From Xenopus tropicalis (lineage: Eukaryota > Chordata > Amphibia > Anura > Pipidae): a DNA stretch of 64,000 nucleotides. A program made the translations under genes and the position numbers. The stretch lies in NCBI RefSeq assembly GCF_000004195.4, contig NC_030677.2:40239142-40303141 (forward strand), written 5' to 3'. Each line of letters begins with the position of its first letter. The stretch's first letter is position 1. The notes below the pieces were generated by a model. The model was not told the origin of the DNA. It did no database searches and worked only from the letters and a program-made list of their open reading frames with translations. Below are positions 291-62,850 of the stretch, piece by piece.

Positions 291-3200
291 GCAACTGCAT
301 TGTCTGTATTTACCTCCTGTGCTCAGACTGAAGGAGGCTACATCACTAGAACAGATACACATTTGCACTCTCTGCACTAGAACAGGTACATTTTCAGTTA
401 AAGAAATCAGAAATTTGGCTCATAAAGTTACCACAGAAAGCTTTTTAGCATAGTACCCCCCAATAACAACCAACACCCCCTTCTGAAAGGATCCAAGTTA
501 ACTACTCCATAAGAAATAATGAAATCATCATCCTTGCAATTTGCTGCAGGGCACTTGAAGCGCCCTTACAAACTCTGTGTGACTGAGGCCTAATTACAAA
601 GCCGGCAAGGGCATTAACAGCCATAATGCTCATTCTCTAGAAATGACTGAGTACAAACCATACTTAGCTGAGCTTGCAGTTCATCGTAGATAATGAAGGA
701 ACAATGATCCATCCCAGGAGCTGAATCTGCAACTAAACATATCTGTACATATCACATGGGAAAAGGGCGATTAGCTGTGTTCCGAATCATTGAGTAGATC
801 CTAGAATTAAATAGGATTTTAGCAGATGGCAAGAAATCATATAGACAAGATATGTACTATAGATAAGAGCATACACAGGGCCACAGTTAGGTAAGATGGC
901 TACCTGGACTTTCATCCTTCAATACTCCCACACACAGCTATGCCATTACCCTTAAAGAGGAAAACTGTCTCAAAAATGAAAATTATTTATCTCTGGAAAT
1001 ATGAAACTTTTTAAATATAATAAGTTAACTGTGCTGTACTGTTTCTAAAAATAATCAAGTTCCTCTTCACTATCTCCCTCTCAGCAACCTATCTCTATCA
1101 AACAAAGTAACTGACTCCTGCACAAATTCTGGAGTCATGAGTCATGATGGAAAAGTTACAAAATGGTAATGTCACAAGAAAAAAGGCAAATAAATGAATT
1201 AAGCCATACTGTAGAGCTCTTTCAGATTATTAAAATGAGGGATCTGCCATCTCTGCAAGATGCTTCTGCAAAACATTATCCCATATGAGAGGCGTGCTAG
1301 TGGAGCCCCTATCCTGGTGGGCCCTGGGCAAATGCCCCTTTTGCCCATTTATTACAACGGTCCCGTCAGAGATGGTTACTTTGAATGTGTGAGCTCTAAT
1401 ACATCTAGGAAAAGTGTGTACCCCCCCAAAGGATGTATTATACCTAACTGTCAATCATAATCTGACTCTGTCTCATGCATAAAGAGAACATGAAGAGAGA
1501 CAGATTACTAACTGAAATAGAAAGTTTGGTTTTTCATTGAGATGAAGCTTATATTAAGTTTTCATTTTACCCTTTAGAGAACTTTGGGCGTGCAACTGAT
1601 GAGATGCTGGTATTTATACAAACTTTCTAAACTTGCCATTGATAAGAGTTTATATGGCAAGCAAAAGAGGGGTTTATGGGTTTAATGAAACACCCTGGGC
1701 AATGTGTAGGTGTGACACGGGGGATATCTGCAAATCAATGAAATACAACCTGTGTGCATAAAGTTATTTATTTGTTAAATTATTTATTACTGTTGTCAAA
1801 AAAACATCATTTGCATTTGTTTAGGTTGCCCCCAAACATCCATAAAACAAAATAAAGCAGAATTTGCCCAATGTGCAGGGAAAATGCACTAAGCATTGCT
1901 TTAAAGTAATTAGGCCAACCTTAGTGTTTAGTGGCTCTTCCCATTGTTGGGAAAAGTTCTCTTTATAACAGCTCTGAGTGCTTGTACTCTAAAAGCTCAT
2001 TGCTCTTAATCTCGAGGTGTTCAACTGGTAAATTACAGTGGTAAATCCACCCAATGTCTTTTATGTGAAAAAGAGAAAAGTTCAAAGTACTGTTTCTATT
2101 GAAATGCTTGGGATCTGGGGTAATGGATATTTCTGTTATTTGCAGGTGTATGCCATAAGGACACTACACCGGACTCTAAAAATAAATCCCAGTAAAGTGT
2201 TTTTTCCATGCACTGCATATAGATTTGTTATATTAGTTGCCATCACGTTCAATGTATTTCAGAGAAAATCATATCAGTCAGTATTAAGGAATGACTTACT
2301 TTAATAGGACATTTATGGGCAGCACCTCTTCTTAGGGCTGGAAAGCTGATTGTGGGGACTTTACATTGGCAAATAAGAAACTAACAATAGCCCTTCTCAC
2401 CCCGTCCTTCTATAATCTTTGTAATGTTTATTGGCAGATAGAGAGGGCATTTGCCCAGTATCTCATAGGAGGTTCCCTGGCCAGAAACGCCTCTCAATTA
2501 TAGTACAAACAACATATTATTGCATTTGTGTAGGAATGACATAGGAGAATATTGCAGATCAAATAAAAACACTTCAGTGCATGGATTATTTCTTTATGTA
2601 TTAGTCCTGTGACTCAACTACAATTTACATATGTTTAAATTGCCCCCAGAAGTCCCTAAAACAAAATAAAGCAGTAAATAGTACTAAGCTTTATTTTAAG
2701 GTAATTAGACCCACCTTATTGTTTGGTGAGACTTCCCACTGTTTGGACAAACACTCTTTATGCTAGCTCTGACTACATGTTCTCTAAGATCATTGCTCTT
2801 AATTTCTAGGTGTTAAATCTTATTCAACTGTTAAATTAGGCTAGTTAATCTACCCCATGGCTTTTATGTGAAAATTAGAATAGTTCAAAGCACTTCTTAT
2901 AGGAGGTTGGTTGCTATTGGTAACTGCACTGGTGCAATTTACCCCAAACATCTATTTAGTGTTCCATTTAGACACATGGTAACATCATGGCTGTATGTAT
3001 ATTAACACTAAAAACAAATGAATGGCTCTACTGTCTGGTATTTGTGACCAAATGACTGCATTTTGGACCTTTGCTGGCCAGATTAGATCCCCATTGGCAT
3101 AGTCAGCTAGCCAGCTCTATTGGCTTTATTGTTGGGAAAAATGGGGCTATCTGTCCATGGGTAGAAGGCACAAGGCAACCCTGTCCGTAGTGCCTGGCAT

Positions 3201-17408: not shown

Positions 17409-17422
17409 TCATCGCTTTGTTT
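17409..17422 (-). CDS. Predicted last coding exon of the kinase gene (alternative stop at 17,731)
   Basis: After HPFITDTWDVMGAKKDIAKH the exon reaches a strong donor (AGAA|GTAAGG, boundary at 17,760). The next good acceptor (CCCTTCTTCCCTTAG) is at 17,423; splicing there gives the ending ...LQRKTKR and TGA at 17,409-17,411. If the donor is not used, the frame runs on to SKAYCSFAV and TAA at 17,731-17,733. Either way the protein stops a few residues after the kinase domain. Which end is used cannot be told from DNA. Confidence 0.45.
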
Positions 17423-20400
17423 CTAAGGGAAGAAGGGTCAGTGTTAGCCATGCAGTAAGTCTGTGTATAACAATTCTGATATTTGTTCATTAGCCATTAC
17501 ATGATAAACCTCATTTGCCTTTTGCTGTTAATTTAAAGGTAAAAAAAGAAAAACTACCCAACACTATTTTTTCCTATTCTACCTTGGGGTCTTTCTACTA
17601 GATACAGCCTAGAGCACTAACCCCTACACTAAAACAATCTAAGGATTTATTTATGGTGGATTTTGTTATGGAATTATAGTACACATATAAAAGCTAGGGA
17701 ATATTATTTGCACTGGGACAGTAGATAGGGTTATACTGCAAATGAGCAATATGCCTTACTTCTCTGCAGGTGCTTTGCAATATCCTTTTTAGCACCCATT
17801 ACATCCCATGTGTCTGTGATGAATGGGTGAGACAAGAGCTCCTTTGCAGTTGCTCTCTTAGCTGGATCTTTCTCCAGGCACTTCTGAAGAAAGTCATGGA
17901 CCGCTTCACTCCTGGAAAAAGAAATGAAGGCAAAATTGTTATTGTTCATGTAATAAACACAATATCTAATATCTCAGATGTATTTCCCCACTTCCATTCC
18001 CCCCACTCTCTGTATCCATGTGTATGGAAATGACTCACCATTTGTTCCCTGTCAATTCTGGAGCAGGACCATGAATAATTTTTTCGATAAACATCCTTTG
18101 AGGTAGGTTCTTGAATGCTATTTAGTGAAAAAACAATATTAGAAGCTGAATGCTGACTGCTGATTACATAATTTCGTTTTTCATGTTCTTGTTTCATTTA
18201 CATTGGGGACAGCAATATTCAATATCTTTTGACCTTTCTAGTAACACTTCTTTATGTAATACAGTACACACACATGCCAAGAATGGCTGGGGTTTACTTA
18301 CGGAAATATCCTTGTGCCATTTCCATGGCTATGATTCCCAGAGACCACACATCAGTCTAGAAATTAAGAAAAAAGACAACTATTAGACAGGAATTCATGT
18401 CAGTTACAGATCATTCAGATATTTTCCTATTTATCCATCCACACCTTGATATTGCTTCTATTGTTCTGTTTAGAATAACAAATAAATTAGAAACTCACAG
18501 GGACAGATTTATCAAAATGTGAGTTTAAAGCTTAACACATAAAAACTCACCCACGTTCTATTCATTCCTATGGGATTTTTAGAAGTGTATGAATCAAATG
18601 GTGAACTTCTAACTTTCATCCATTGATAAATTGGCTTCTAAAAATCCCATAGGAATGAATAAAATGTGGGTGAGTTTTTATGTATTAAGCTTTAAACTCA
18701 CATTTTGATAAATATGCCCCAGAGTGTTTCAAGGAGTGAGAACTGTGGGTTTCATCACTAAAAAAAATGGCACCGCACACTATACACCTTTGCATAACCT
18801 AAAGTTGGAAAATACCTACATTTTTAAAAAAGAATGAATGTAAAATGTATTTAGGGGTCTCCTGTACTGGCTCACCTCTCCAATCCCCAACTGCAGCAAA
18901 GAAGCTGACCTGGGACTGAGCTAATAAAGCATCAAGCTTGTGCAGTGAAAAACTATAGGGGTTATTTACTTTGACCAGGGGAAGATGTGCCCAATGCCTT
19001 TTTTAAAATAATGACCCCTAATTTATTACTTGCTTAGAAGGTGCTCCTGTTTGGTGATTGCAACTAGAATTTAGAAGATCTAAAGACAAGTGGCCTATTG
19101 TAGGCAGCCAACCCAACTGAGCAACTCTGTATTTTCTAGGTCAGTATGGGAAGCAGGGCTGACCTGGCAGGGTTTTTGCCATGGTTGGAGAAGGAGGAGG
19201 GAGGGCAGACAGGGGACCCCTAATTATGTTGAATGCAGTTTTTTAAAAATCCTATGAAATCCTATCCTATAAATTACAAATTATAACTTTGGTTTTGCTG
19301 TTATGAGAAGGGTACATGAAAGAGTGAGCAAACAAATAAACATTTTACATACGTGACATTGGCTCTAAAATGAAAAGACAGAGAAAAGACGTCACTGTAC
19401 CTTATTATCATATTCAACACTTTTGTCCTTAAGGCAGACTAGTGCTTCTGGTGCCATATATATTCTTGTTCCAGCACCGCTATTACTCTTTTCTCCCTTG
19501 GTGGCAATTCCAAAATCAACTACAAGTGTATGAGAAAAATATGAATTTTAATGTTCATTTAAAAATGTAACATACCGATCAAACACTGTTTCAACACAAA
19601 TTAATTTCATTTATGGGCACTGCCTAAAGAAAAACTTTTCTATGTAAGCTAGCATTAGCAGTATTGTTTCTGCAGAATTAAACATTTTTAAAAGTTTATT
19701 TAAACATTTATGGCCTTGTAAGATAAAGTGGAGATTGAACCATAACGCATCTCTTCACATTCACTAAAGATTCCCAACATGCAACCCGTGTTCAGATTTT
19801 AAGCATCACTTACTTATCTTCACCTCGGCAGATTTGGTAAGCATAAGATTGCTGGGCTTCAGATCATGATGTATAATATTCTGCTCATGCAGGTGACATA
19901 GGCCCTGGGAAAATAATAAATCAGAAGTGAAAATATAAATAATTGTCACACTCTTCATCTAAGATATTGATTTGTTATACAAATATCCAGAGGAGTACCG
20001 AGGTGGATGACATACCTGTAATACCTCTTTGCAGATATAGGAGGTCCATCTTTCGCCTAATGTGCAAAATTTTTTGCTCTCCATTAGGTCTGCGACAGAT
20101 CCACCTTCACAAAGTTCCATAGCAATCTAGAACACAAAGAATATATGGTACATATATTTATACTGCCTACAATTTTGTTAGGAAGCCCAGGAAAAGATTG
20201 AATGTGCATTGGATGCAGCCATTCTTATTTATTTCCTTCTAGAATGTCCAGAAATCCATTTTCATGCTTTTATACACATAAACATATAAAGCGGAAGTAA
20301 ACATGGGCCTTGTTGGATGCCTCCCCTAGTATCTCCTAAGAATGTGCAATTTTATTAATGTGCATTTACTCTAGGGAAACATATCTGTCTGCATGTACAA

Positions 20401-23400
20401 TCTGTTCTGTCTTATGTTTCTATCCCCTTCTCTGTAAAGCGTTGTGTGATATAATATTAGTTCTAAGCTTAGTTGCTTGCCTGATATTGTTGAGTTATGC
20501 ATTAGGCAATACTGATGAAGTGGGACCCTTGAGTGCTGTAATTTAGTGCAACATAATATATTGCACTTGGGGTAGTTTTAGCTTCTGGTTTATGTGCAAC
20601 ACGGGAGAAGTGTAACTAAACTGCTTTGATCTCTCATGCAGAAACATGCTTTGCATGCAGAGAGGGACTGCAATATCAGGTACAAATGAACAAAATGTTC
20701 ACATGGATTGGACCCTTCCAGTAGCTGTTGGTTGGCATGTTGGGTGCACAAAGGTTTAACCTATCTAAACACTTCCTTACCCATAGTCCATTATTTAATG
20801 TCCTCATAGGGTCATTTTGGTAAAATGCCCCATGAAAAGTAATGACATTGTCATGGCCAGAAACTATCTTTAGAACATCTAATTCGTGGAGGATGCGTTC
20901 TTCATCCTAGTAACAAACAAAAGTATGTTAAATAAAATAATAATAATAAAATAATAAAATGGAATATATTCCATATATATATATATATATATATATAATT
21001 ATATAGAATTGCAGCTTTGATATATTATAATTCACTCTATTTGTCCTATTAGTTCTGAAATCCCATTTCCAAAATATGCACATCCATCAAGTTATTTTCA
21101 CCATTCTATAAAGCTGGTTAAATGCTGTACTATATTATACTAACATTCTGATAAATTTCTTTCCATTTTTTCATGAAATAGCAGCCTATCTCCATTTTGA
21201 ATTGAAACAGTTCATTATAAAAGCCAGTGCCATGCTAATATTTGGTTAGCAAGTTCTAATCCTGATAATCATTATGTAGGTGTAGCAAAAGGCTTTGTCA
21301 AAGATGCTTATTATTATGAAAATAGTTGTGATTATTGTTGTTATAGTAATAGTATGAAAACACATTACCTCCTTGTTCTTTATCACTTTTATGGCCAAAT
21401 GTTGGTGTTTTATTTGATGCCATCCCTGTAACAAAAGCAGAGAAAGAAGGTCTGTTATGATGTTTAACTTCAGTATCATATAGAAAACAGCCTCAGAAAC
21501 ACAATCAAAAGACAGAAAGGACAAAAACGGACATGGAAGCATGATACAAAATATTCCATTTCAGCATTAGCTAAATATTTTACCTTATGGACGACTCCAA
21601 AGCTTCCTTCCCCGATAGCCTTTCCAAGTTTTAAAATTCCATCAGGGTCCTAAAAAAAATAGCATTGTATTTAAAGCAAGTTGAATACAATAATAAATGA
21701 TTATAATGTGTTTGTATTGGGGGGAAGTCTGTGGGTTTGGAATAATAAAGTAATAACATGAAAGTTGTGCTTTTGCATCTTTTAGAGTTCCAAAGTATAG
21801 TTTCAAATATCTACTTACTGGAAATGGAGATGTATCATCCTCCTGGGGAAGAAAAAAAGTTTATTAGACTTAGTTTATTATGGAAACTGCTAAAATTATT
21901 ATTTGAAGAGCAAGGTTACTGGAGTTACAAATATGTTGGGTAAAAACTGATCTGAGTTCACACATATCAAGTATATATATAAAACTGAGTATATATGAAG
22001 ATGACCCAAACCTCAGCACAGACTTGGAGGTCCTCTTGAAGGCAGATACTCGTCTCCTTTTCTTCAGAGGGTTTATTCTGGCTGATGTTATTGCCAGTTT
22101 CCTCTGTTTGCTTCTGTAATGCAAAATGCATTAGTATAAGAACTAAACCTTAAAGTAAAGATGGTTAAAGGGGCAGTATATTCCCTTTTCAAAAAATAAA
22201 TCAATGACTAGGTCTTGTACTGAAATATTGTTTGCAGAAACAAAGTTAGTAACAATTCCCCCCCCCCCCCCCACTCCACTCCATGAGGGAGTCTGGTTCT
22301 CTTAATTGTTTTGGGAATATATTCATTTTAAAATTTGGGGTATTTTGGCCATATGTTTCCCTCCTAAGGGCAGTGGTACACGGGGAGATTAGTCGCCCCA
22401 CAGCAAATCTTTGTTGTCGCGGGCGACTAATCTCCCTGCAATGCCATCCCACCAACTAGATTTAGAACTAAATCGCCAGTGGGATGGCAAACGCGGCGCT
22501 GCGATGTCCCACAGTCACCCAAAGTTTCCTCTCAAGACAAAAGAAGGCAGCATTTTCTTGTGATTATCTCTCAAGGCAGCCAAAAATTAGGCTTTCCCAA
22601 TGATAAATAAAAGCAAAAGGCCAAATAACAGTTAAAGTCAATACAACATGTAAGGGAAGCAATTATTATAAGGACTGCATGATAACAACTCATTTCCTGC
22701 TTACCAGGCTGATATTTTCAGCGGGCTCCTCTTGTTGAGCCTGGTTAGGGGATAAAAAGTTAATGTTATTTTACAGAAGGCCTTTCATCTCTCAAGATCA
22801 AAACAAGGCAAGTTATTGCTTTTGAGGAAATATAATTAATGTTTAGAAGTAAATGCAGTACAGGTATTGGACCTGTTATCCAGAATACTTGGGACTTGGG
22901 GGTTTGTGGATAGGGGGGGTCTTTCCATAATTTGGATCTCCATACCAAGTCCATTAAAAAATAATTGAAATGCTACACAAATGCAGTAGTATTGTTTGGC
23001 CTCCAATAAGGATTAATTATATCTTGGGATCAAGTGCAAGATAATGTTTTATTATTACATAATAATTAGAATTATTTGCTTAAAATGGTGTCTTTGGAAG
23101 ATGGCCTTCCCATAATTCAGAACTTTCTGGATAATGGGTTTCCAGATAACAGACACTACACCTGTTTTAATATAGGGGTTTATGGTATTCTGCTAATCAG
23201 CAAAATAAGATGCAAAGCTTAATAGCATTAATAGCTAGAAAAATTGTATTTTTAAAATCTATGTTCAATGTTCAATTCTCTGCTTACCACAATAGTTTGC
23301 TTGGTAGGTTCATCTTGTAGTTCCTAGAATAAAAAATGTATTTATCACAAAAAGATATGATCAAAGGGCCTATCATCCTTTATAAGCAATACAAGGCAAA

Positions 23401-26400
23401 TTATCACTATAGATCAGTGTATGTGAAGTCTTGTATGTGAAGTTTTTTACATCTATGTTGTCCAATTCTTTTCTGCTTACCACAATAATTTCCTCTGTAG
23501 GTTCATCTGGTTGTTTCTAGAATAAAATGGGAGAATGTGGCTGATTGTGAATGAATTAAACACTCATTTTAAGAGGGGTTACAATGATTAGATATGTATA
23601 TAGAGGAGCTTCTTTAAGGTTTTTGATGAAGCTGCATAGCTAAATAGCATAAATAGTTAGTAAATTGTATTATTTAAATCTATGTTGGCCAAATCTTTTT
23701 TGCTTACCACAACACTTTCCTCTACAGGCTCATCTGGTGGTTCCTAGAATAAAAAAATATATTTAAAAGAGGTTAATTAAATAAATGCAGTATGGGACTT
23801 GGCCCCTCCTAGTCAGACACTGTGCATAGATAATAGCATAAATAGCTAGAAAAAAATGTGTTTTTTTATTTATGTTGTCCAGTTCTCTACTTACTACAAA
23901 AGTTTCCTCCGAAGGTTCATCTGGTTGTTTCTAGAATAAAAAATGTATTTATCACTAAAATATATGATCAAAGGGCCTATCATCCCTTATAAGCAATAGA
24001 TGTAGATGGAATGAATGTGTATTAATAAATGCATTAGGGGAGTGGGGCACCCCAGCCGGACACTGCATAGGTGAATAGTATAAATAACTAGAACAATTGT
24101 GTTTTTTATATCTATGTTGTCCAATTCTTCTCTGCTTACCACAATAATTTCCTCCGTAGGTTCATCTTGTTGTTTCTAGAATAAAAATTTTTTTTTTAGC
24201 ACTCAAAGAAATGATCAAATAGGCAAAATAGGCCTGATTAGTATTCAGTGAAGAAATAATGGGAGAATGTGGCTGATTATGAATGTACTAAACACTCATT
24301 TTAAGAGGGGTTATAGTGATTAGATGTATATAGAGGAGTTTCTTAAGGTTTTCGATGAAGCTGCATAGCTAAATAGCATAAATAGTAAATTGTATTATTT
24401 ATATCTATGTTGTCCAGATCTTTTCTGCTTACCACAACAGTTTCCTCGGTAGGCTCATCTGGTGGTTCCTAGAATGAAAAAAAAGTTATCAGATTAATTA
24501 AATAAATGTAGTATTGGGCTGGGCCCCTCCTAGTCAGACACTGTGCATAGATAATAGCATAAATAGCTAGAAAAAAAATGGGTATTTTTTATTTATGTTG
24601 TCCAGTTCTCTACTTACTACAATAGTTTCCTCCGTAGGTTCATCTGGTTGTTTCTAGAATAAAAAAAAGTTTTTATCACTAGAAGAAATTACCCAAATGG
24701 CAAAATTTGTCTGATAATTATTCAGAGGAAAAATAATGGGAGCCAACTGTGAATGAATTAAATCCTCAATATTTGGGGGATTACAATGAAGATGATGTTA
24801 TTTTACAGAAGGCCTATCATCTCCCAAGATCAATACAGGGCAAGTTATGGCTAAAGATCAGTGTAGGTGTATTCTTGGGGAAAAATGTGAGAATACGGCT
24901 AATTGTAAATGAACTAAATCCTCATTATTTTTGGGGGGCTTACAATGAATGAATGTATAGGGGGGCTTCATCAAGTGTTTTTGATGAAGCTGCATAGCTA
25001 AATAGCATAAATAATTAGGAAATTATATTATTTATATCTATGTTGTCTAATTCTACTCTACTTACCACAACCGTTCCCTCGGTAGGTTCATCCAATTGTT
25101 TCTAAAATAAAAAAGTTTTTATCACTAAAAGATATGATCATATAGGCAAAATAGGACTGATCATTATTCAGAGGTGGAATAATTGGGGAATGTGGGCAAT
25201 TCTGAATGAACTAAATCCTCAGTATTTTGTGGTGGGTTACAATGAAGGTGGTGTTATTTTACAATAAGGCCTATCATCTCTCAAGATTAATACAAGGCAA
25301 GTTATGGCTACAGTGTTTGTGTATTCTTAAAAAAATAGCTTTTGAGGGGATATATAAAATGTGTATTAATAAATGCAGTAATGCTGACTGGGACACACCA
25401 GTCAAACTCTATGCACAGATCAATGGCATAAATAGCTAGAAAATTGTGTTTTTTATATTTATGTTGTCCCATTCTCTGCATACCACTATTGTTTCCTCCA
25501 CAGGTTCATCTGGTTGTTTCTAGAATAAGAACGTTTTTATCAGTAAAAAAATGATCACATAGGCAAAACCGCACTGATAATTATTATGATGAGAAATAAT
25601 GGGAGAATGTTGCCAACTGTGAATGAGTTAAATCCTCATTATTTGAGGGGATTACAATGAAGGTGATGTTATTTTATAGAAGGATAGATAGCATAGATGA
25701 ATAGCATAAATAGGTAACAAAAAATTGTGCTTTTTTTATATCCATGTTGCTCAATTCTTCTCTGCTTACCACAATAGTTTCCACTGTTGGTTCATAAAGT
25801 TGTTCCTAGAATTAAAGAAAGTTTTTTATCACTGAAAAAAATGATCAAACAGGCAGAATTGGTTTGATAATTATTCAGAGGATAAATAATGGGAGAATGT
25901 GGCCAACTGTGAATGAACTAAATCCTCATTATTTTTGGAGGGGTTACAATGAATTGGGTATGTATAGGGGGAACTTCATCAGTTTTTTTTTATAGCTAAA
26001 TAACATAAATGGTTAGAAAATTTGTATTATTTACATCTATGTTGTCCAATTCTACTCTACTTACCACAACAGTTTCTTCCACAGGTTCATCTGGTTGTTT
26101 CTAGAATTAAAAAAAAACATTTTTATCACTAAAAGAGTTGATGAAATAGGCAAAATAGATCTGATCATTATTTAGAGGAGAAATATAGTAGAATGTGACC
26201 ATTTCTGAATGAGCTAAATCCTCAGTATTTTGAGGGGGTGGGGGTTACAATAAAACTGATGTTATTTTAGAGAAGGCCTATTATCCTTAAGATCAATACA
26301 AGGCAGACCATGGTATGTATATTCTGGGGAAAAAATGCTTTTGAGGAAATATAATTAATGTGTATAAATAAATGCAGTATCAGTATAGGGATTTATTCTG

Positions 26401-29400
26401 ACAATAAGCACAGGCCAAGGTGCTATCCCTTGCCAGGATATAAAAGTAGATTTTATCATCAACAAAGTCAAGGGTTTTAACAATACAGTCAATGAAGTTA
26501 TACAATGTGTAATCTATGGAGGTAGTAAGGGATGATTCTGACATGGTGCTAAATTCAGGATAGTGTATATAGTTATCTCTCCAAGGAAACGTCTGATTAT
26601 TATTATTGAAAAGAGAAATAATTGGAAAATGTGGTCCAATGCGACTACATTGGCTAAATCCTCATTGTTATTTTGGCGGGGAGGGGTCCCAATAAATTAG
26701 ATATGTATACAGGGCAGTTTTATCAAGATTTTTTGATGAAGTTATATAGCTTAATAATATAAATAGCTAGAAAAAAAATCATTTTTAATATCTGTTCAGT
26801 TCTTCTCTGCTTACCTCAATAATTTCCTGTGTTGGTTCATCTGGTTGATTCTAGAATAAAAAAAGTTTTTGTCACTGAAAGAAATGATCAAACTGGCAAA
26901 ATAGGTTTGATTATTATTTAGAGAAGAAATAATAGGAGAAAAGTACAAATTGGGAATGACCTAAATCCTCAGTATATTGGGGGGGTTACAATTAAATAGA
27001 TTTGTATGCGGGGCAGGCAAGTAAATATAATGATTGGTAAATATGATTATAATGATTTGAATAGCATAAATAGTTAGAATAACCACTCAATAACCGCTCA
27101 ATAACCACCCAGTGAGTGTGTGATAAATTCAAATTTATTACAAAAGATACTTGTGTATTACAACATGATTACAATTCAATAGTGATATAATTACAATTCA
27201 TTAATGATACAGATAAATACTAATTCATGCAGACCCACTATATAAAAAAAATATCAATTAAAAATAATAACACAAATGAGCAATAAATTGGTTCACCCAC
27301 ACTCTAAACTAATATCTATTCCAGGTGCAGAATAAAATACCTAAACACAAGTTTATTGATTGTATGGGAGACCACACTAAAAACCTAAGGGCAAAACACC
27401 TTAGGAAACCTATTCTAAAAATCCCATATAGAAAGAAGAAAAACCAGAATTAATACACATGAGAAACACTGAGGTCAAATTACTTATCCCACATATCTAT
27501 TGCAAAAGGTATCGAGATTTTAGGTTAAAAACAAAGAAGAGGAAAAACCATTTATCAAACCCCAATTATCAGCAGAGAAAAATCAATTTCCCACTCTAAG
27601 GATACTCCTAGGCAAATAAAACTTGCAGGGTAACCGGGGAAGTACACCTGTATTGATGCATAAAATACGCCCTATACCTAAATGTTCAATAAATCTTACA
27701 GTACTGTATGGGCAAGGAATAGGAGAGCTCGCCTAGGGAGAGTTATATAAAATCCCAAGACTTTAATTAAAAAAGCACATGTCCCGGCCGGGAACTTACT
27801 GCAAATGAAGAGAGGTACTCACGCCGGCGGTAATAGGTAATAGGCGCCGATTCAGTCACTACGGGTCCTCTCTAGGTTCTAGTCGACGCGTTTCGCGCTC
27901 TGCGCTTCCTCATGGACTAACACCCCCCTATCGGCTAATCTCTCTTTTTATACCCATCTATGCTAACCAACCTAGTTTCATTAACCCTATATGACCTGAC
28001 CGAAAAAACGCTTAAATTAACAATTTAAACTACTAAAAACTCTAATCCTTTTCAATTACACCTAATTGAGTAAAACCTTATTAAACCATAGGCAGTGAAG
28101 TATTAATTTAAAAGGAGGAAAGAAAGGAAAAGAAAAAAAAAATGTTATGTTTCCCAATTCTTCTCTTCTTACCACAATAATTAGTAAAGAAGAAAAAAGT
28201 TTTTCACTACATGAAACAATCAAGTAGCCAAAATAGATGTGATAATTATTCAAAAGAGAAATAATGGGAGAATGTGGCCAATTGAAATAAACCATCAGTG
28301 TTTTTTGAGATGGGTTACAAGGAATTGGATATATATATATGGTGCATTTTCATTACATTTTGTTGCACCATAGTTGCATTTAAATCTATAGGCAAGTAAA
28401 TGAAATCATTTAAATAACATATTAGGAAAATTGTGTTTTATATATTTATGTTGCTCAGTTCTTCTCTTCTTACCACAATTTGTTTGAAAGATTCATCTGG
28501 AAATATCTAGTAAAGAATAAAAAAGGTTATTCACTAAAAGAAACAATCAATTGGGCAAAAAGAGAAATAATGGGAGAATATGGGATATGTATATGGTACA
28601 GTTTCATAAAGTCTTTTTGATGAAGCTGCAATTAAATGTATAGGCAAGTACATAGAACAATTGTGGGGGGGGGTTAATATCTATATTATTTGCTTACCAA
28701 AGTGATTTCTTTTGTGGGTCCATCTGGTTGTCTCTGTTAAAGAATAAAAAAGAAACAGAAATGAGCAAATAGGCAAACTAGAATATATTTAGTAATATAA
28801 AATCAAACTTGTTCTGGGTTGAAAAACACCTATATATTTAAATAGCGCTATCCCTTTTAAAAAGTCAATTTTTTTTCACCAGACTTTTATTTTTAATTTT
28901 ATATTCCATGGACATTACAATATAAACATGTCTTATGACTTTGTTGAATATTTGCATTAAAGTTAAAGGGGTACTGGGGCCATATTCCCATCTATAGTGA
29001 ATGCTTTCTCCATGGATTTCCACTGCCACTTCTAGAGATTTGGCCAAAACGCAACACTTTTCTCTGGATTCAGATTTGGCAGAAACCTTAGCATTTATTC
29101 AAACTGTATCAGGTGAGGTTATTATTGGGACTTCTCTGAAATCTAATTATACAAATAAGGATTTGAATTTGGTTCAGTAATCTGCAGTACTTAAGATGAA
29201 CCAAAAAGTGTATCTGTGTCATTCTAACACAGCAGTGTATGTAGCACAATACACAGAAATACACAGCTACAGCCTGAGCTGCTAGCAATCTACCATATCA
29301 TCATGTTCAGTATCATGTACGGTGAATGTCAGCTTTCATAGGTCACAAACAGATCAATATTTAGAGATCACCAAGTAAGGTTATAAAACAAGTCTCTCCC

Positions 29401-29513
29401 TCGATAAAGCGATATTACAGTAGACGAATATGATATATATATAAATATGACATACTTACCTTTCGCTTACGCAAGCGAAAGCAAGAGAAACAAGGCCAGA
29501 TTCGCTTCCACAT
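17409..29513 (-). CDS. STE20/GCK-like protein kinase with micro-exon-encoded acidic repeats
   Basis: Unnamed serine/threonine kinase gene, reconstructed exon by exon with GT-AG sites and matching phases. Exons (5' to 3'): 29,460-29,513; fifteen micro-exons from 28,733 to 22,705; 22,012-22,113; 21,819-21,842; 21,584-21,649; 21,369-21,425; 20,781-20,906; 20,016-20,126; 19,814-19,904; 19,401-19,519; 18,302-18,356; 18,039-18,117; 17,760-17,911; then a predicted short last exon 17,409-17,422. Total about 528 residues: basic/Cys N-terminus (1-18), fifteen acidic repeats (19-197), linker (198-239), kinase (about 243-512). Kinase residues: GEGSFG (252-257), Lys 274 in AIK, Glu 288, Asp 373, DFG (391-393), MAPE (411-414). 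The family resembles the MAP4K4/TNIK/MYO3 kinase group (compare EMAQG, HPFI) but has no CNH domain. Function unknown. Transcription unproven. Confidence 0.85.
17760..20126 (-). CDS. Kinase C-lobe exons
   Basis: Exons 20,016-20,126 (111 nt), 19,814-19,904 (91), 19,401-19,519 (119), 18,302-18,356 (55), 18,039-18,117 (79), 17,760-17,911 (152). They encode hinge IAMELCEGGSVADLM, catalytic loop IIHHDLKPSN, DFGIATKGEKSNSGAGTRIY, MAPEAL, TDVWSLGIIAMEMAQG, and KCLEKDPAKRATAKELLSHP then FI. Phases join exactly (0-1, 1-0, 0-1, 1-2, 2-1). The catalytic Asp and DFG are present, but the Arg of HRD is His. The 55-nt exon's donor is CC|GTAAGT. Confidence 0.87.
18499..18720. mobile_element. AT-rich foldback MITE in the kinase gene
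   Basis: Near-perfect inverted repeat: left arm ACAGATTTATCAAAATGTGA, right arm CACATTTTGATAAATATGCC, with a second conserved pair around CCTATGGGATTTTTAGAA. Inserted in the intron between the 119-nt and 55-nt kinase exons. Confidence 0.65.
20781..21649 (-). CDS. Kinase N-lobe exons
   Basis: Exon 21,584-21,649 (66 nt) encodes DPDGILKLGKAIGEGSFGVV followed by HK, with the glycine-rich loop. Exon 21,369-21,425 (57 nt) encodes GWHQIKHQHLAIKVIKNKE with catalytic Lys 274. Exon 20,781-20,906 (126 nt) encodes the helix C region DEERILHELDVLKIVSGH and strand residues NVITFHGAFYQ. The pattern DP..I..L....G.G.(F/Y)G.V followed by HENI(A/T).(F/Y)(H/Y)GAF is that of MAP4K/NIK-type kinases. Confidence 0.87.
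21819..22113 (-). CDS. Kinase gene linker exons
   Basis: Exon 22,012-22,113 (102 nt, phase 0) encodes 34 residues beginning KQTEETGNNISQ and ending LQEDLQVCAE; its first residues resemble the repeat (K-Q-x-E-E-T), so it may derive from an extended repeat exon. Its donor GAG|GTTTGG is weak. Exon 21,819-21,842 is only 24 nt and encodes EDDTSPFP, also phase 0, donor CCA|GTAAGT. Together they form an acidic linker (residues 198-239) leading into the kinase. Confidence 0.7.
22705..22740 (-). CDS. Micro-exon 15 (last of array)
   Basis: Encodes AQQEEPAENISL (residues 186-197), the most diverged unit at the kinase-proximal end. Acceptor CTAACCAG, donor CTG|GTAAGC. Its 36-nt length and phase are kept. 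Confidence 0.75.
22858..23163 (+). mobile_element. MITE, TACAGGTATGGGA family, inside the kinase gene
   Basis: Runs from TACAGGTATTGGACCTGTTA to CAGATAACAGACACTACACC. It lies in the intron between micro-exons 15 and 14 and accounts for most of that intron's extra length. Confidence 0.6.
23288..23323 (-). CDS. Micro-exon 14
   Basis: Encodes ELQDEPTKQTIV (residues 174-185). Acceptor ATTCTAG, donor GTG|GTAAGC. Confidence 0.8.
23481..23516 (-). CDS. Micro-exon 13
   Basis: Encodes KQPDEPTEEIIV (residues 162-173). Acceptor ATTCTAG, donor GTG|GTAAGC. Confidence 0.83.
23708..23743 (-). CDS. Micro-exon 12
   Basis: Encodes EPPDEPVEESVV (residues 150-161), EPP subtype. Acceptor ATTCTAG, donor GTG|GTAAGC. 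Confidence 0.83.
23895..23930 (-). CDS. Micro-exon 11
   Basis: Encodes KQPDEPSEETFV (residues 138-149). Ends GTA|GTAAGT like micro-exon 8. Confidence 0.83.
24140..24175 (-). CDS. Micro-exon 10
   Basis: Encodes KQQDEPTEEIIV (residues 126-137). Acceptor ATTCTAG, donor GTG|GTAAGC. Paired with micro-exon 13 by flanking intron sequence. Confidence 0.84.
24433..24468 (-). CDS. Micro-exon 9
   Basis: Encodes EPPDEPTEETVV (residues 114-125), the EPP subtype shared with micro-exon 12. Acceptor ATTCTAG, donor GTG|GTAAGC. Confidence 0.84.
24618..24653 (-). CDS. Micro-exon 8
   Basis: Encodes KQPDEPTEETIV (residues 102-113), the exact consensus. Ends in GTA rather than GTG before donor GTAAGT, a feature shared with micro-exon 11. 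Confidence 0.84.
25066..25101 (-). CDS. Micro-exon 7
   Basis: Encodes KQLDEPTEGTVV (residues 90-101). Acceptor ATTTTAG instead of ATTCTAG, donor GTG|GTAAGT. Confidence 0.8.
25484..25519 (-). CDS. Micro-exon 6
   Basis: Encodes KQPDEPVEETIV (residues 78-89). Acceptor ATTCTAG; donor GTG|GTATGC, the one unit in this stretch with GTATG instead of GTAAG. Confidence 0.8.
25770..25805 (-). CDS. Micro-exon 5
   Basis: Encodes EQLYEPTVETIV (residues 66-77). Asp-4 is replaced by Tyr in this unit. Acceptor ATTCTAG, donor GTG|GTAAGC. Confidence 0.8.
26065..26100 (-). CDS. Micro-exon 4
   Basis: Encodes KQPDEPVEETVV (residues 54-65). Acceptor ATTCTAG, donor GTG|GTAAGT. Confidence 0.82.
26815..26850 (-). 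CDS. Micro-exon 3
   Basis: Encodes NQPDEPTQEIIE (residues 42-53). Acceptor ATTCTAG, donor GAG|GTAAGC. Confidence 0.78.
27079..28140. mobile_element. About 1-kb unclassified insertion inside the micro-exon array
   Basis: Interrupts the array between micro-exon 3 and the decayed unit. It starts around AACCACTCAATAACCGCTCA and ends in a purine-rich AAGGAAAAGAAAAAAAAAA tract. It contains a CpG-rich motif GTCGACGCGTTTCGCGCTCT followed by GCGCTTCCTCATGG. No coding frame was found. Flanking sequence on both sides belongs to array introns. Class unknown. Confidence 0.5.
28173..28192 (-). pseudogene. Decayed micro-exon unit
   Basis: The flanking repeat sequence is present on both sides (TTCTCTTCTTACCACAATAA on one side, a TCACTA...CAATCAAGTAGCCAAAAT intron block on the other), but most of the 36-nt exon is missing. 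Only the 3' codons before the donor (ATTATTGTG|GTAAGA) remain, with no proper acceptor. It looks like a unit whose exon was removed by a deletion of about 27 bp. Confidence 0.6.
28474..28506 (-). CDS. Micro-exon 2 (33-nt variant)
   Basis: Encodes IFPDESFKQIV (residues 31-41), one codon shorter than the others but still phase 0. Acceptor TTACTAG, donor GTG|GTAAGA. Divergent from consensus; it may be decaying or weakly used. Confidence 0.6.
28698..28733 (-). CDS. Micro-exon 1 of the kinase repeat array
   Basis: Encodes RQPDGPTKEITL (residues 19-30). Acceptor TTTAACAG, donor TTG|GTAAGC. A divergent repeat unit; joins the N-terminal exon in frame. Confidence 0.75.
29460..29513 (-). CDS. Kinase gene first coding exon: basic, cysteine-containing N-terminus
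   Basis: ATG at 29,513-29,511 begins an 18-codon exon encoding MWKRIWPCFSCFRLRKRK, ending at donor AAG|GTAAGT. The peptide has two cysteines among aromatic residues, followed by a strongly basic end. This resembles palmitoylated, polybasic membrane-anchor segments; that function is inferred. A good acceptor (TTTTTGTCTCTATAG) lies about 20 nt upstream of the ATG, so a non-coding first exon further upstream is likely. The 3' end of the exon is part of a perfect inverted repeat (29,460-29,481). Confidence 0.75.
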
Positions 29514-29567
29514 TTTGGTCACTGAAAGTTCTTTCTATAGAGACAAAAAGAAATATCAATTAATATA

Positions 29568-29936
29568 TACAGGTATAGGACCCATTATCCAGAATGCTCG
29601 GGATTCTGGAAAAGGGATGTTTCTGTCATTTGGATCTCCATACCTTAAGTCTACTAAAAAAATCAATAAAACATTAATTAAACCCAATAAGATTGTTTTG
29701 CATCCAATAAGGATCATTTATATCTTAGTTGGGATCAATTACATGGTACAGTTTTATTTCTACAGAGAAAAGGGAAATCAGTTTTAAAATTCTGAATTAT
29801 TTGATTAAAATGGAGTCTCTGAACTTTTGCAGAAACCCGTTATCCAGAAAGCTCTGAATTACGTAAAGCCCGTGTTTTACGTAATTCAGAGCTTTCTGGA
29901 TAACGGGTTTCTGGATAATGAATCCCATAGCTGTAT
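29568..29936 (+). mobile_element. MITE, TACAGGTATGGGA family, just upstream of the kinase coding start
   Basis: From TACAGGTATAGGACCCATTA to the inverted terminus near 29,936. Its right end contains a perfect inverted duplication of the terminal sequence (29,830-29,913). On the gene's strand this element sits within about 60 bp upstream of the first coding exon. Confidence 0.6.
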
Positions 29937-29940
29937 ATAT

Positions 29941-30129
29941 ATATCTCACAAAAACATAGCGCACTCCAGGGACTTTTCTGTAAAAGTTCAATGTTTATTC
30001 TGTCTATGCCATCTGATCAACGCTTCGGCTCTAGAACGGAGCCGAAACGTTGATCAGATGGCATAGATGGAATAGAGATTGAACTTTTACTGAAAAGTCC
30101 CTGGAGTGCGCTATGTTTTTGTGAGATAT
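29941..30129. mobile_element. 189-bp long-palindrome element upstream of the kinase gene
   Basis: Inverted arms ATATCTCACAAAAACATAGC ... complement at 30,110-30,129, continuing inward through GCACTCCAGGGACTTTTC and ATCTGATCAACG to a centre near GGCTCTAGAACGGAGCC. Arms match almost perfectly. Foldback MITE, family not identified. Confidence 0.65.
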
Positions 30130-32954: not shown

Positions 32955-33299
32955 TTCATTAAAACATTGAATAAACCCGATAGGATTGTTTTGCCTCTAA
33001 TAAGGATTCATTATATCTTAGTTGGGATCAAGTACAAGGTACTGTTTTATTATTACAGAGAAAAGGGAATCATTTAACCATTAAATAAACCCAATAGGGC
33101 TGTTCTGCCCCCAATAAGGGGTAATTATATCTTAGTTGGGATCAAGTACAAGGTACTGTTTTATTTCTACAGAGAAAAAGGAAATAATTTTTAAAAATTA
33201 GAATTGTTTAATTAAAATGAAGTCTATGGGAGATGGCCTTTCCGTAATTTGGAACTTTCTGGATAACGGATTTCCGGATAATGGATCCTATACCTGTAA
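32955..33299 (+). mobile_element. MITE, TACAGGTATGGGA family
   Basis: Contains two internal copies of the GTTGGGATCAAGTACAAGGT block and ends GGATAATGGATCCTATACCT followed by GTA. The left terminus is missing. Confidence 0.6.
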
Positions 33300-41249: not shown

Positions 41250-43114
41250 ACTCAGTTTAATATTTGATTTAAATTCTTTCTATTATACAAGAACAAGTTT
41301 ACACATTTAAAGGGATACTGACACTCTTATGAAATTTCTGCTGTGCCATTCTCTGGACCTAATGTCCTGACCTCCTTAACTGATAGGCTGCAGCCACTAA
41401 AGAGCACTAGAAGTGGGCACCTAACAGCTCTCCTCTATGGCAGGGCACAGCAGTACAGCTTCAGCTTGTTGGGCTTGGAAGTTCAGGCTGCCCTAGCCCT
41501 GGAAAAGAGAGCAATTTTGAAATTTGCCATCACTAATAGTATCAGGTCCTTTCAATGGAAGTGCAGTCATTTTAAAATATTGTCATTATCTCTTAAAACA
41601 AGAAAAGACATTTAGTGAGTGCTTTTTAAATTAGAAATGTCCAACATGCGTTCCTCAACTAATACCATGGCAAACAGGCTGGGGGAGGGATGCTCAGTAA
41701 CTGCTGGGGACTGGCTCTCCCATCTAAATTACATCTTATAAGGCATAGCTTATCTAAGACACAGCGAGGTTTGAAAAATCTTTTCATCATCATACCGAAA
41801 CTTTCATGAATTAAAATAAAATTCTATATGGCAGCTAATTGGTTCAGTTAGAAAACTTTATACAAAAAATATAAAATTAGAAGTTTATAAAACTGTTCAT
41901 TATATATACACATATAAAACCTTTTACTAATATAAATAACTATATATTACATTTCTTTTCACTACAATGGACTATAAATATGTAAAATGGTGTTTGTGTC
42001 TCCTTTCATCTCTGCTGAATGAATGTATTAAAACTAAATCAGCCTCAGAATGTAAGGCATTTCTGTCACTGGATTGTTTTGCTAGCCTTGATACATAATG
42101 ATGTAGGAACTACCTGGTAACCCTATGCTTTCTAGAAAAGTGAAACAAAATAATGTTAATACTGTTATAATGTCCTGTAATTAAATAACATATTCATTTT
42201 ACAGCTTTGATATAATGACTGTTGATATAGCTTTGATATAATGGCAGGTTTATCATCTATTCTACATTATAATAAATATTCCCCAAAACACCAGATCATC
42301 ATATAAAATGATGGAGTATATATGCTACATTTTAACAACAAATTAACCACTGTTCATCTGTTTCATTTCAGCCTAGGGACAATATTTCATTATTCTATGA
42401 TACAAGTTGTGTAAAAGAAAGGAGTCAAATAATTAAGGCAAATGGTAAAAAATTGCTATTGCTCATGTGTTTGTATGTAGCACACAAGTTACACTTGTTA
42501 TCATCACTCTCCAGTATCCAGGAACTATACCAATCCATAACTGGTATTCTAAAATGACTGGTAGTCAATACACTGTAAGTCTCTCTTACAAAACATGACC
42601 TAATATGAAGCCATGATAACACCATATAACATTATTGACTTTGATTTTCTTGTCTTCAAGACAGAACTGTAGTAGAAATAGTGCAGCAGCAACTCAGTTT
42701 TTCACAGCTCAAGATTTGATATTTCCAAGATTAGTTCAAGGGCATGACTTGCATTAAACACTGTACTGAAGGGGAATCAGGAGTCTTAATATTTTTATCA
42801 GTTACTCTTTCAGTCTCCCATAATGCAATAGCAGACATTTGGTGTCCATACAAGAATCATGGCTTCAGAAGATCCATACTCTGCCCTCAAAATTATATAA
42901 AAATATATTCTTTGTTTAAGGCATTGTCATTTGGAATCTATTCCTTATTGCTGGGTAGATCCAAAGAAGCATACATTTGTCCTTAATATCTTCTGGCCTC
43001 TTGCTGGAAGGAGTTGAAGAAATACAATATTAAGAGTAGTGCACAGGAAGACTAGTTTGTTTGTAGCTCCTAGGAAAGCTTCTTAAATTGAAAGGCACCA
43101 GCCTGCCTCCATGT
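41250..43114 (-). other. kdr: kdr 3' UTR (extent inferred)
   Basis: The region downstream of the kdr stop on the minus strand is AT-rich and has no supported coding sequence. I found no minus-strand AATAAA between about 41,600 and 43,100. The nearest good variant signal I see is ATTAAA near 41,252-41,262, which would give a 3' UTR of about 1.9 kb. The end point is a guess; a T2-like terminus lies at about 41,308. Confidence 0.3.
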
Positions 43115-62539
<19,425 letters not shown>

Positions 62540-62850
62540 CTTCAGCTTTAGCCCAGGTCTGATAGTGATATCCCAGTAGACAGCCAGAGTAAGATACCAG
62601 GGCAGAACCCAGTGGTCCCAGAGACATGGACTGTGATTAGGCCCTGAAGGCAGTGCGCAGGAGGGAAGCAGGCAGGGAGCACTGACAGGTCTCTGAGGTA
62701 AAGTTGCCAGAGATGCTCACTCTGAGGATGTATCTCCAGCGCTACACAGCCAGTCTGTGCTCCACAGGCAACAGCAGCAGCAGCTTCCCAACTTGGCTCC
62801 CAAGCCACGCCCCTACAGCCGAATGCCCGCCCCTCCGCTCGAATTTCTGG
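62540..62850 (-). promoter_or_regulatory. kdr: kdr 5' UTR and GC-box promoter region
   Basis: Upstream of the kdr ATG the sequence becomes more GC-rich. Two GC/KLF-type boxes are visible: the complement of GCCACGCCCC at 62,804-62,813 and of CCCGCCCC at 62,826-62,833, about 265-295 bp before the start codon. No TATA box was seen between them and the ATG, in line with the known TATA-less, Sp1-dependent KDR promoters of mammals. The transcription start is not determined. Confidence 0.45.

Follow-up and report, generated by a model that had tools for sequence, protein, structure and literature searches.

The stretch of DNA analysed here comprises 64,000 nucleotides (nt) of the Xenopus tropicalis genome (C1:40,239,142-40,303,141) and is referred to as the window. 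Its minus strand carries a gene that consists of an N-terminal Cys/basic exon, fifteen micro-exons, two acidic exons, and kinase exons followed by a stop codon, with a predicted product of 528 residues. The micro-exons lie between positions 28,733 and 22,705. Fourteen of them have 36 nt and one has 33 nt, and all are phase-0, stop-free, preceded by AG and followed by GT. Twelve units encode peptides near KQPDEPTEETIV, and the three units at the edges are divergent (RQPDGPTKEITL, IFPDESFKQIV and AQQEEPAENISL). The parts of the gene, with positions counted in the window, are:

29460-29534, minus strand: first coding exon, with an acceptor before 29534, the ATG at 29513, the peptide MWKRIWPCFSCFRLRKRK and the donor GTAAGT; a proposed Cys/basic membrane anchor, as its composition suggests
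28698-28733, minus strand: micro-exon 1, 36 nt, RQPDGPTKEITL
28474-28506, minus strand: micro-exon 2, 33 nt, IFPDESFKQIV
28173-28182, minus strand: fossil sixteenth unit, of which the final 10 exon nt and the donor remain, the acceptor and 5' part being gone
26815-26850, minus strand: micro-exon 3, NQPDEPTQEIIE
26065-26100, minus strand: micro-exon 4, KQPDEPVEETVV
25770-25805, minus strand: micro-exon 5, EQLYEPTVETIV
25484-25519, minus strand: micro-exon 6, KQPDEPVEETIV
25066-25101, minus strand: micro-exon 7, KQLDEPTEGTVV
24618-24653, minus strand: micro-exon 8, KQPDEPTEETIV
24433-24468, minus strand: micro-exon 9, EPPDEPTEETVV
24140-24175, minus strand: micro-exon 10, KQQDEPTEEIIV, with the weakest acceptor in the array
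23895-23930, minus strand: micro-exon 11, KQPDEPSEETFV
23708-23743, minus strand: micro-exon 12, EPPDEPVEESVV
23481-23516, minus strand: micro-exon 13, KQPDEPTEEIIV
23288-23323, minus strand: micro-exon 14, ELQDEPTKQTIV
22705-22740, minus strand: micro-exon 15, AQQEEPAENISL, the terminal unit, which groups with the terminal units of four other loci in the unit tree
22012-22113, minus strand: acidic spacer exon, 102 nt, phase-0, KQTEETGNNISQ...VCAE, with the poor donor GTTTGG
21819-21842, minus strand: acidic exon, 24 nt, phase-0, EDDTSPFP
17818-21649, minus strand: kinase domain in nine exons (21649-21584, 21425-21369, 20906-20781, 20126-20016, 19904-19814, 19519-19401, 18356-18302, 18117-18039 and the first part of 17911-17760), with GEGSFGVV, LAIK, IIHHDLKPSN, DFG and APE present
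17409-17422, minus strand: last coding exon with the stop, 23 residues separating the kinase-closing HPFI from the protein end

An earlier 3' end, which gave a protein of 567 residues, was dropped for one that is consistent with the GT-AG rule. The micro-exons account for 537 of the 1,587 coding nucleotides. The counterparts of the 24-nt exon in paralogs have 36 nt (EDDTYEFVETYP, EDDTYQFIETYP and ENDTYHFQEKYP). The start of the 102-nt exon (22113-22078) resembles micro-exon 15 at 22 of 36 positions, and 11 of the 57,815 other 36-mers of the strand match equally well.

A preliminary description of this DNA had proposed fifteen tiny exons, each with its own acceptor and donor and all symmetrical in phase 0. 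All fifteen are in place, every unit length is divisible by three, and the shared frame is open. When the entire minus strand of the window was scanned for open 36-nt exons whose splice scores are no lower than those of the weakest array micro-exon, all 14 matches fell in the array; one match came from the plus strand. The 33-nt scan of the minus strand gave 3 matches, including the array member. Opposite-strand controls in four pieces with paralogs gave 0 open 36-nt candidates each. Given the scan and these controls, chance splice-like sites were rejected as the origin of the array. The array donors fall between the 94th and the 99.6th percentile of the GTs of the strand (99.8th among minus-strand GTs for the donor of the first coding exon), and their mean score is 8.5, compared to 6.6 for the 10 downstream exons. 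The acceptors range from the 67th to the 99th percentile of the AGs, with scores of 1.2-10.2. Introns between units are 149-1623 nt long, 11 of the 14 falling within 149-412 nt, and the spacing is irregular; Tandem Repeats Finder called no array at the micro-exon region. The similarity between units continues into the introns. The repeat unit thus includes intron sequence, and the array grew as exons were duplicated together with their introns. In the largest array intron, beside the fossil unit, the stretch at about 27,100-28,140 looks by eye like a mobile-element insertion.

The spacer that the preliminary description had placed between the N-terminal exon and the kinase is seen in the charge layout: 18 N-terminal residues at +7 are followed by 221 residues at -51, and the array portion alone (179 residues) has a net charge of -43. 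The N-terminal exon carries two cysteines and a basic cluster. The kinase region begins after the spacer, at residue 240. It had been described as an intact STE20-like domain, and the alignment agrees, with the glycine loop, the VAIK lysine, the HRD aspartate, DFG and APE all present; activity is predicted from sequence only. The closest solved structures are those of TNIK (231 bits), MINK1 and MAP4K4 (213-216 bits), followed by SLK (158 bits), and the 15 best distinct PDB sequences are all TNIK, MAP4K4 or MINK1 (213-231 bits). Judged by likeness, the kinase domain is of the TNIK/MAP4K4/MINK1 type; judged by its predicted architecture, the gene is not a GCK-IV member. A published account places the kinase of MINK1 at the N-terminus (PMC11727420). 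In the array gene, unlike in the GCK-IV kinases, the kinase lies at the C-terminal end, HRD is replaced by HHD, and the activation segment is four residues shorter than that of TNIK in the alignment. Only kinase-type Pfam models, and no CNH domain, were found in the modelled protein (in its earlier 567-residue version), which ends soon after the kinase; the downstream DNA was not scanned for CNH exons.

The array kinase belongs to a gene family whose members carry micro-exon arrays of their own, with other lengths. This goes beyond the preliminary description, as do a likely pseudokinase member, the HHD motif, and the protein end 23 residues past the kinase domain. All relatives compared are paralogs within the same genome, of which 1,451,301,209 bases in 167 contigs were searched (C1 has 217,471,166 bases). 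A search with the kinase domain gave 142 matches with E values up to 0.001 on several chromosomes, 144 of 1,220 first-look candidates having been scored. A search with a 37-residue kinase exon gave at least 150 matches, a lower bound because 150 of 191 candidates were scored; 13 of the 150 have at least 64% identity, one of them being the window gene. Array regions were read at six of the 12 other loci at this level of identity:

C6a, 25.13M: 14 intact units and one fossil
C6b, 25.15M: 12 units, all intact
C6c, 25.17M: 12 intact units
C5, 132.98M: 11 units, 7 of them intact
C7, 109.34M: 4 units and three 45-nt phase-0 exons
C7, 94.72M: no array in the 6 kb read, and a stop in the e4 exon

The C6b and C6c arrays are 99.1% identical. 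The 45-nt exons of C7 encode ET[IT]AV[CR]EEPPQEIGE and form another type of micro-exon repeat. C7:109.34M and 109.45M carry two oppositely oriented copies whose e4 exon matches are identical. The exact sequence CTAGAAACAACMAGATGA, which spans an acceptor and the start of a unit, occurs 23 times in the genome, in all 23 cases upstream of kinase-family exons on the same strand, at 8 loci. With one mismatch there are 25 more occurrences, 10 at family loci and 15 elsewhere, and a backward control pattern has 7 in all; the 10 include C6:48.62M, with its fragmentary, stop-bearing kinase exon.

Over the kinase exons e1-e8, identity among the window gene, C6b and C7 is 61-65%, synonymous divergence (dS) is 0.8-1.2, and the ratio of nonsynonymous to synonymous divergence (dN/dS) is 0.21-0.29. 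Exon lengths are the same or differ by one codon, and the two paralogs share the HHD motif, in which the aspartate is kept. VAIK and DFG are retained in C7. C6b reads VTIE and NFE, so that the VAIK lysine and the DFG aspartate are lost, and it is probably a pseudokinase. Since its 12 units are nevertheless intact, the spacer may have a role besides catalysis, for instance in tethering or scaffolding. Like the window gene, C6b has a Cys-rich start exon (MFRCFFHCFFRVCG). No convincing kinase relatives were found in 230 kb of neighbouring pieces (best E 0.012), and a weak kinase match inside the window (46.3-46.6 kb, E 0.001) falls within a neighbouring receptor kinase. More distant relatives, about 46-61% identical over one exon, form large clusters at C4:16-26M, C8:13.6-16.9M, C6:94M, C2:28-29M and C1:16M, marking a major expansion of kinases in the genome.

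A unit tree was built from 53 units of five loci, with C6c, the fossils and two frameshifted C5 units left out and the stop-bearing C5 unit retained. In it, the five terminal units form one clade (support 100), as do the 12 core units of the window (92) and 31 units of C5 and C6 (96). For 14 of the 15 window units, the nearest neighbour lies within the window. The clades imply that at least the terminal unit was already present in the common ancestor, and that the window and C5/C6 arrays expanded separately. In places the expansion is recent. A four-exon block of 666 nt is present twice in C6a with 99.4% identity, a two-exon block of C6b (about 358 nt) has a second copy at 97.8%, and the largest recent block in the window comprises two exons (24653+24468 versus 23930+23743) with 89.9% identity over 404 columns. 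Such blocks support the unequal crossing-over that the preliminary description had proposed. Related genes carry rows of differing length, so that the genome seems to lengthen and shorten the spacer by copying whole exons.

What has been maintained in the array can be judged from the copies. Among the 12 core copies, identity is 0.79 in the exons, 0.76 in the upstream and 0.84 in the downstream introns, and 0.87 in the splice-site columns. Exon and intron letters thus drift about equally fast, and what is held is the frame, the exon borders and the absence of stops, not the letters. In a simulation of neutral decay, on average 6.7 of 14 units stay intact with substitutions only and 3.6 with insertions and deletions, compared to 13 of 14 observed (P 0.006 and 5e-5). 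The simulation used a tree built by the unweighted pair group method with arithmetic mean for 14 units, namely the 12 core units, the 33-nt unit and the fossil, counted as broken; the two outermost units, which are hard to align, were dropped. An earlier star-tree version that omitted the fossil had given P values from 0.004 to 5e-6, and the tree version is fairer.

The paralog C5 provides a comparison. Two of its units, of 40 and 35 nt, would shift the frame, a third contains a stop, and a fourth is a fossil that lacks a donor; no glycine-loop exon was found at the expected place. By profile search of six arrays, 4 of 11 units are broken in C5 versus 2 of 59 in the other five (Fisher P 0.0045), or 2 of 35 if only the window, C6a and C7 are counted (P 0.023). 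The 2 of 59 are the window fossil and a C6a fossil in common with C5. With the shared fossil excluded, the counts are 3 of 10 versus 1 of 58 (P 0.0088) or 1 of 34 (P 0.032); all these Fisher tests treat related units as independent. The shared fossil, which has no donor, lies at about 3008-3059 of piece L033 and at about 2113-2164 on the reverse strand of piece L034, and is absent among the C6b and C6c matches. The array of C5 is thus relaxed, and that of the window looks less decayed. The preliminary description had named stops and broken splice sites in orthologous loci as evidence against the array. Judged on paralogs, such damage marks C5 (4 of 11 units); of the other five arrays, a single fossil is present in the window array and in C6a, and three have no broken unit.

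From these observations, the locus is likely to be a functional protein-coding kinase gene, with a product that is probably membrane-anchored and an acidic linker whose length would be set by exon copy number via unequal crossing-over. Several findings weigh against it. The donor of exon 22113-22012 is poor, the mean acceptor score is 6.6 in the micro-exons versus 8.5 downstream, and the acceptor at 24175 is weak. Exon identity between copies does not exceed that of the flanking introns, and the idea that exons are better conserved had to be given up. Strong codon-level selection within the array is only suggested, as the ratio of nonsynonymous to synonymous differences (pN/pS) between window copies is 0.53, where neutral simulation has a median of 0.85 (one-sided P 0.064). 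One fossil unit is present in each of the window and C6a arrays, and a scan of 4.4 kb upstream of the C7 array revealed no recognisable anchor exon.

It appears possible, if less than likely, that the array is spliced in but forms an unstructured linker that tolerates any number of units, so that its length drifts by chance. Intact unit numbers vary from 4 to 15 between loci, codon constraint is weak, and divergence in the exons about equals that in the introns. However, the window and C6 arrays, which expanded separately, have both retained an acidic composition and units of 36 nt. That the locus is a pseudogene in decay, or a repeat in which splice-like sites line up by chance, is very improbable. 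The fossil unit and the clearly decaying paralog would fit it, but 15 of 16 units and the kinase are intact, dN/dS to the two paralogs compared is 0.26-0.29, and arrays are mostly or wholly intact at four further loci. The units might also act through protein turnover, each adding a proline/acid/threonine stretch (PEST) so that unit number sets the half-life of the kinase. By a PESTfind-like formula, three array stretches score above 11 (20.95, 17.43 and 11.67), but three others score 5.09, -2.14 and -8.30, and PEST scores are weak predictors in general. We regard this explanation as improbable.

We consider it rather unlikely that splicing skips different sets of micro-exons, whether tissue by tissue or at random, to give many spacer lengths from one gene. 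In favour, any unit could replace another because all are in phase 0, exon definition has difficulty with exons of 36 nt, and the acceptor scores are widely spread. Schistosome micro-exon genes (MEGs) and caseins, which have such exons, are described as alternatively spliced in excerpts of PMC4350168 and PMC12470106. On the other hand, donors at or above the 94th percentile and mostly short introns favour constitutive inclusion, and there is no SRRM4-type UGC near the acceptors (TGC occurs within 30 nt in 1 of 15 units). Neuronal SRRM4-type microexons have 3-27 nt and a UGC motif close to the acceptor. With lengths of 33-36 nt, and TGC so rarely nearby, the array exons are ruled out as members of this class.

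The functional linker gene that we favour could work as follows. The N-terminus, judging from its composition, would be lipid-attached to the membrane. The micro-exons would mostly all be spliced in, because the donors are strong and short introns would allow recognition across the intron and not across a 36-nt exon. In C6b, 10 of 11 introns measure 93-154 nt, as do 10 of 13 in C6a, and the combination of short introns with strong donors would favour inclusion without special enhancers. Together, the units would form an unstructured, strongly acidic linker that keeps the kinase away from the membrane, or from the basic anchor and substrates; the anchor, the disorder of the spacer and the tethering role are all inferred. 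Over evolution, linker length would change in steps of about 12 residues, since each unit is an exon plus intron in phase 0, and unequal crossing-over could add or remove exon blocks without breaking the frame. We think that constitutive inclusion is more likely than a combinatorial code, with cell-specific skipping possible. It is doubtful, though conceivable, that the arrays of this family of kinases and pseudokinases serve as a length dial, adjusted over evolution through unequal crossing-over and also within each cell through splicing choice, so that one gene would yield many different membrane linkers. The array number may differ between individual frogs.

The array gene adjoins a receptor tyrosine kinase gene on the same strand (43,000-62,800, minus strand), recognised among the open reading frames by exons for immunoglobulin pieces, a transmembrane stretch and a split kinase, which we take to be KDR/VEGFR2-like. 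Just upstream of the first coding exon, at 29,825-30,129, there are two near-perfect inverted repeats (91-nt arms with 93% identity and 43-nt arms with 95%), perhaps short palindromic mobile elements. A 114-nt tandem repeat with two copies is found at 32,956-33,183; close to the C6b gene, visual comparison shows tandem copies of a similar motif of about 113 nt in reverse complement. Rfam reported nothing at the gathering threshold in the window.

Arrays of tiny exons have precedents. For the PEVK-CA region of titin, excerpts of PMC6469411 describe exon duplication and loss. As in titin PEVK, the frog array consists of repeated small coding exons, gained and lost by duplication and rich in P, E, V and K (97 of 179 array residues). 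Unlike titin PEVK, it has 36-nt units and a net charge of -43, belongs to a 528-residue kinase, and occurs in a multi-gene family with separate expansions. The Pfam models found are of the kinase type and not of titin, and homology to PEVK was neither sought nor seen beyond composition. The caseins CSN1S1 and CSN1S2 have acquired many small exons by exon duplication and drop exons, including skipped exons of 24 and 39 nt, according to excerpts of PMC12470106. In contrast to the array gene, they encode secreted milk proteins without a kinase. Casein exons are also less uniform than those of the frog array. In schistosome MEGs, as excerpts of PMC4350168 have it, most of the coding region consists of very small symmetrical exons that permit many isoforms. 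The array exons are likewise very small and symmetrical, but they make up a third of the coding sequence and not most of it, and form one segment of a kinase. The MEG products are secreted or gland-associated parasite proteins. Variable splicing of the frog kinase segment is putative. In the titles and abstract beginnings of the open-licence literature, no such array on a kinase was noticed among the matches listed, which is no proof of absence.

Rows of very small symmetrical exons, known from a muscle spring, from milk proteins and from parasite proteins, are here common to a set of signalling kinases. The loci with 4, 12, 12, 14 and 15 intact units, together with the decaying array with 7, form a natural series for studying the effect of linker length on a kinase and the birth, upkeep and loss of exon arrays. 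The arrays have expanded separately, with block duplications of recent date, and the decaying locus offers a built-in comparison. Finally, the family suggests how rows of 36-nt exons persist, probably through short introns.

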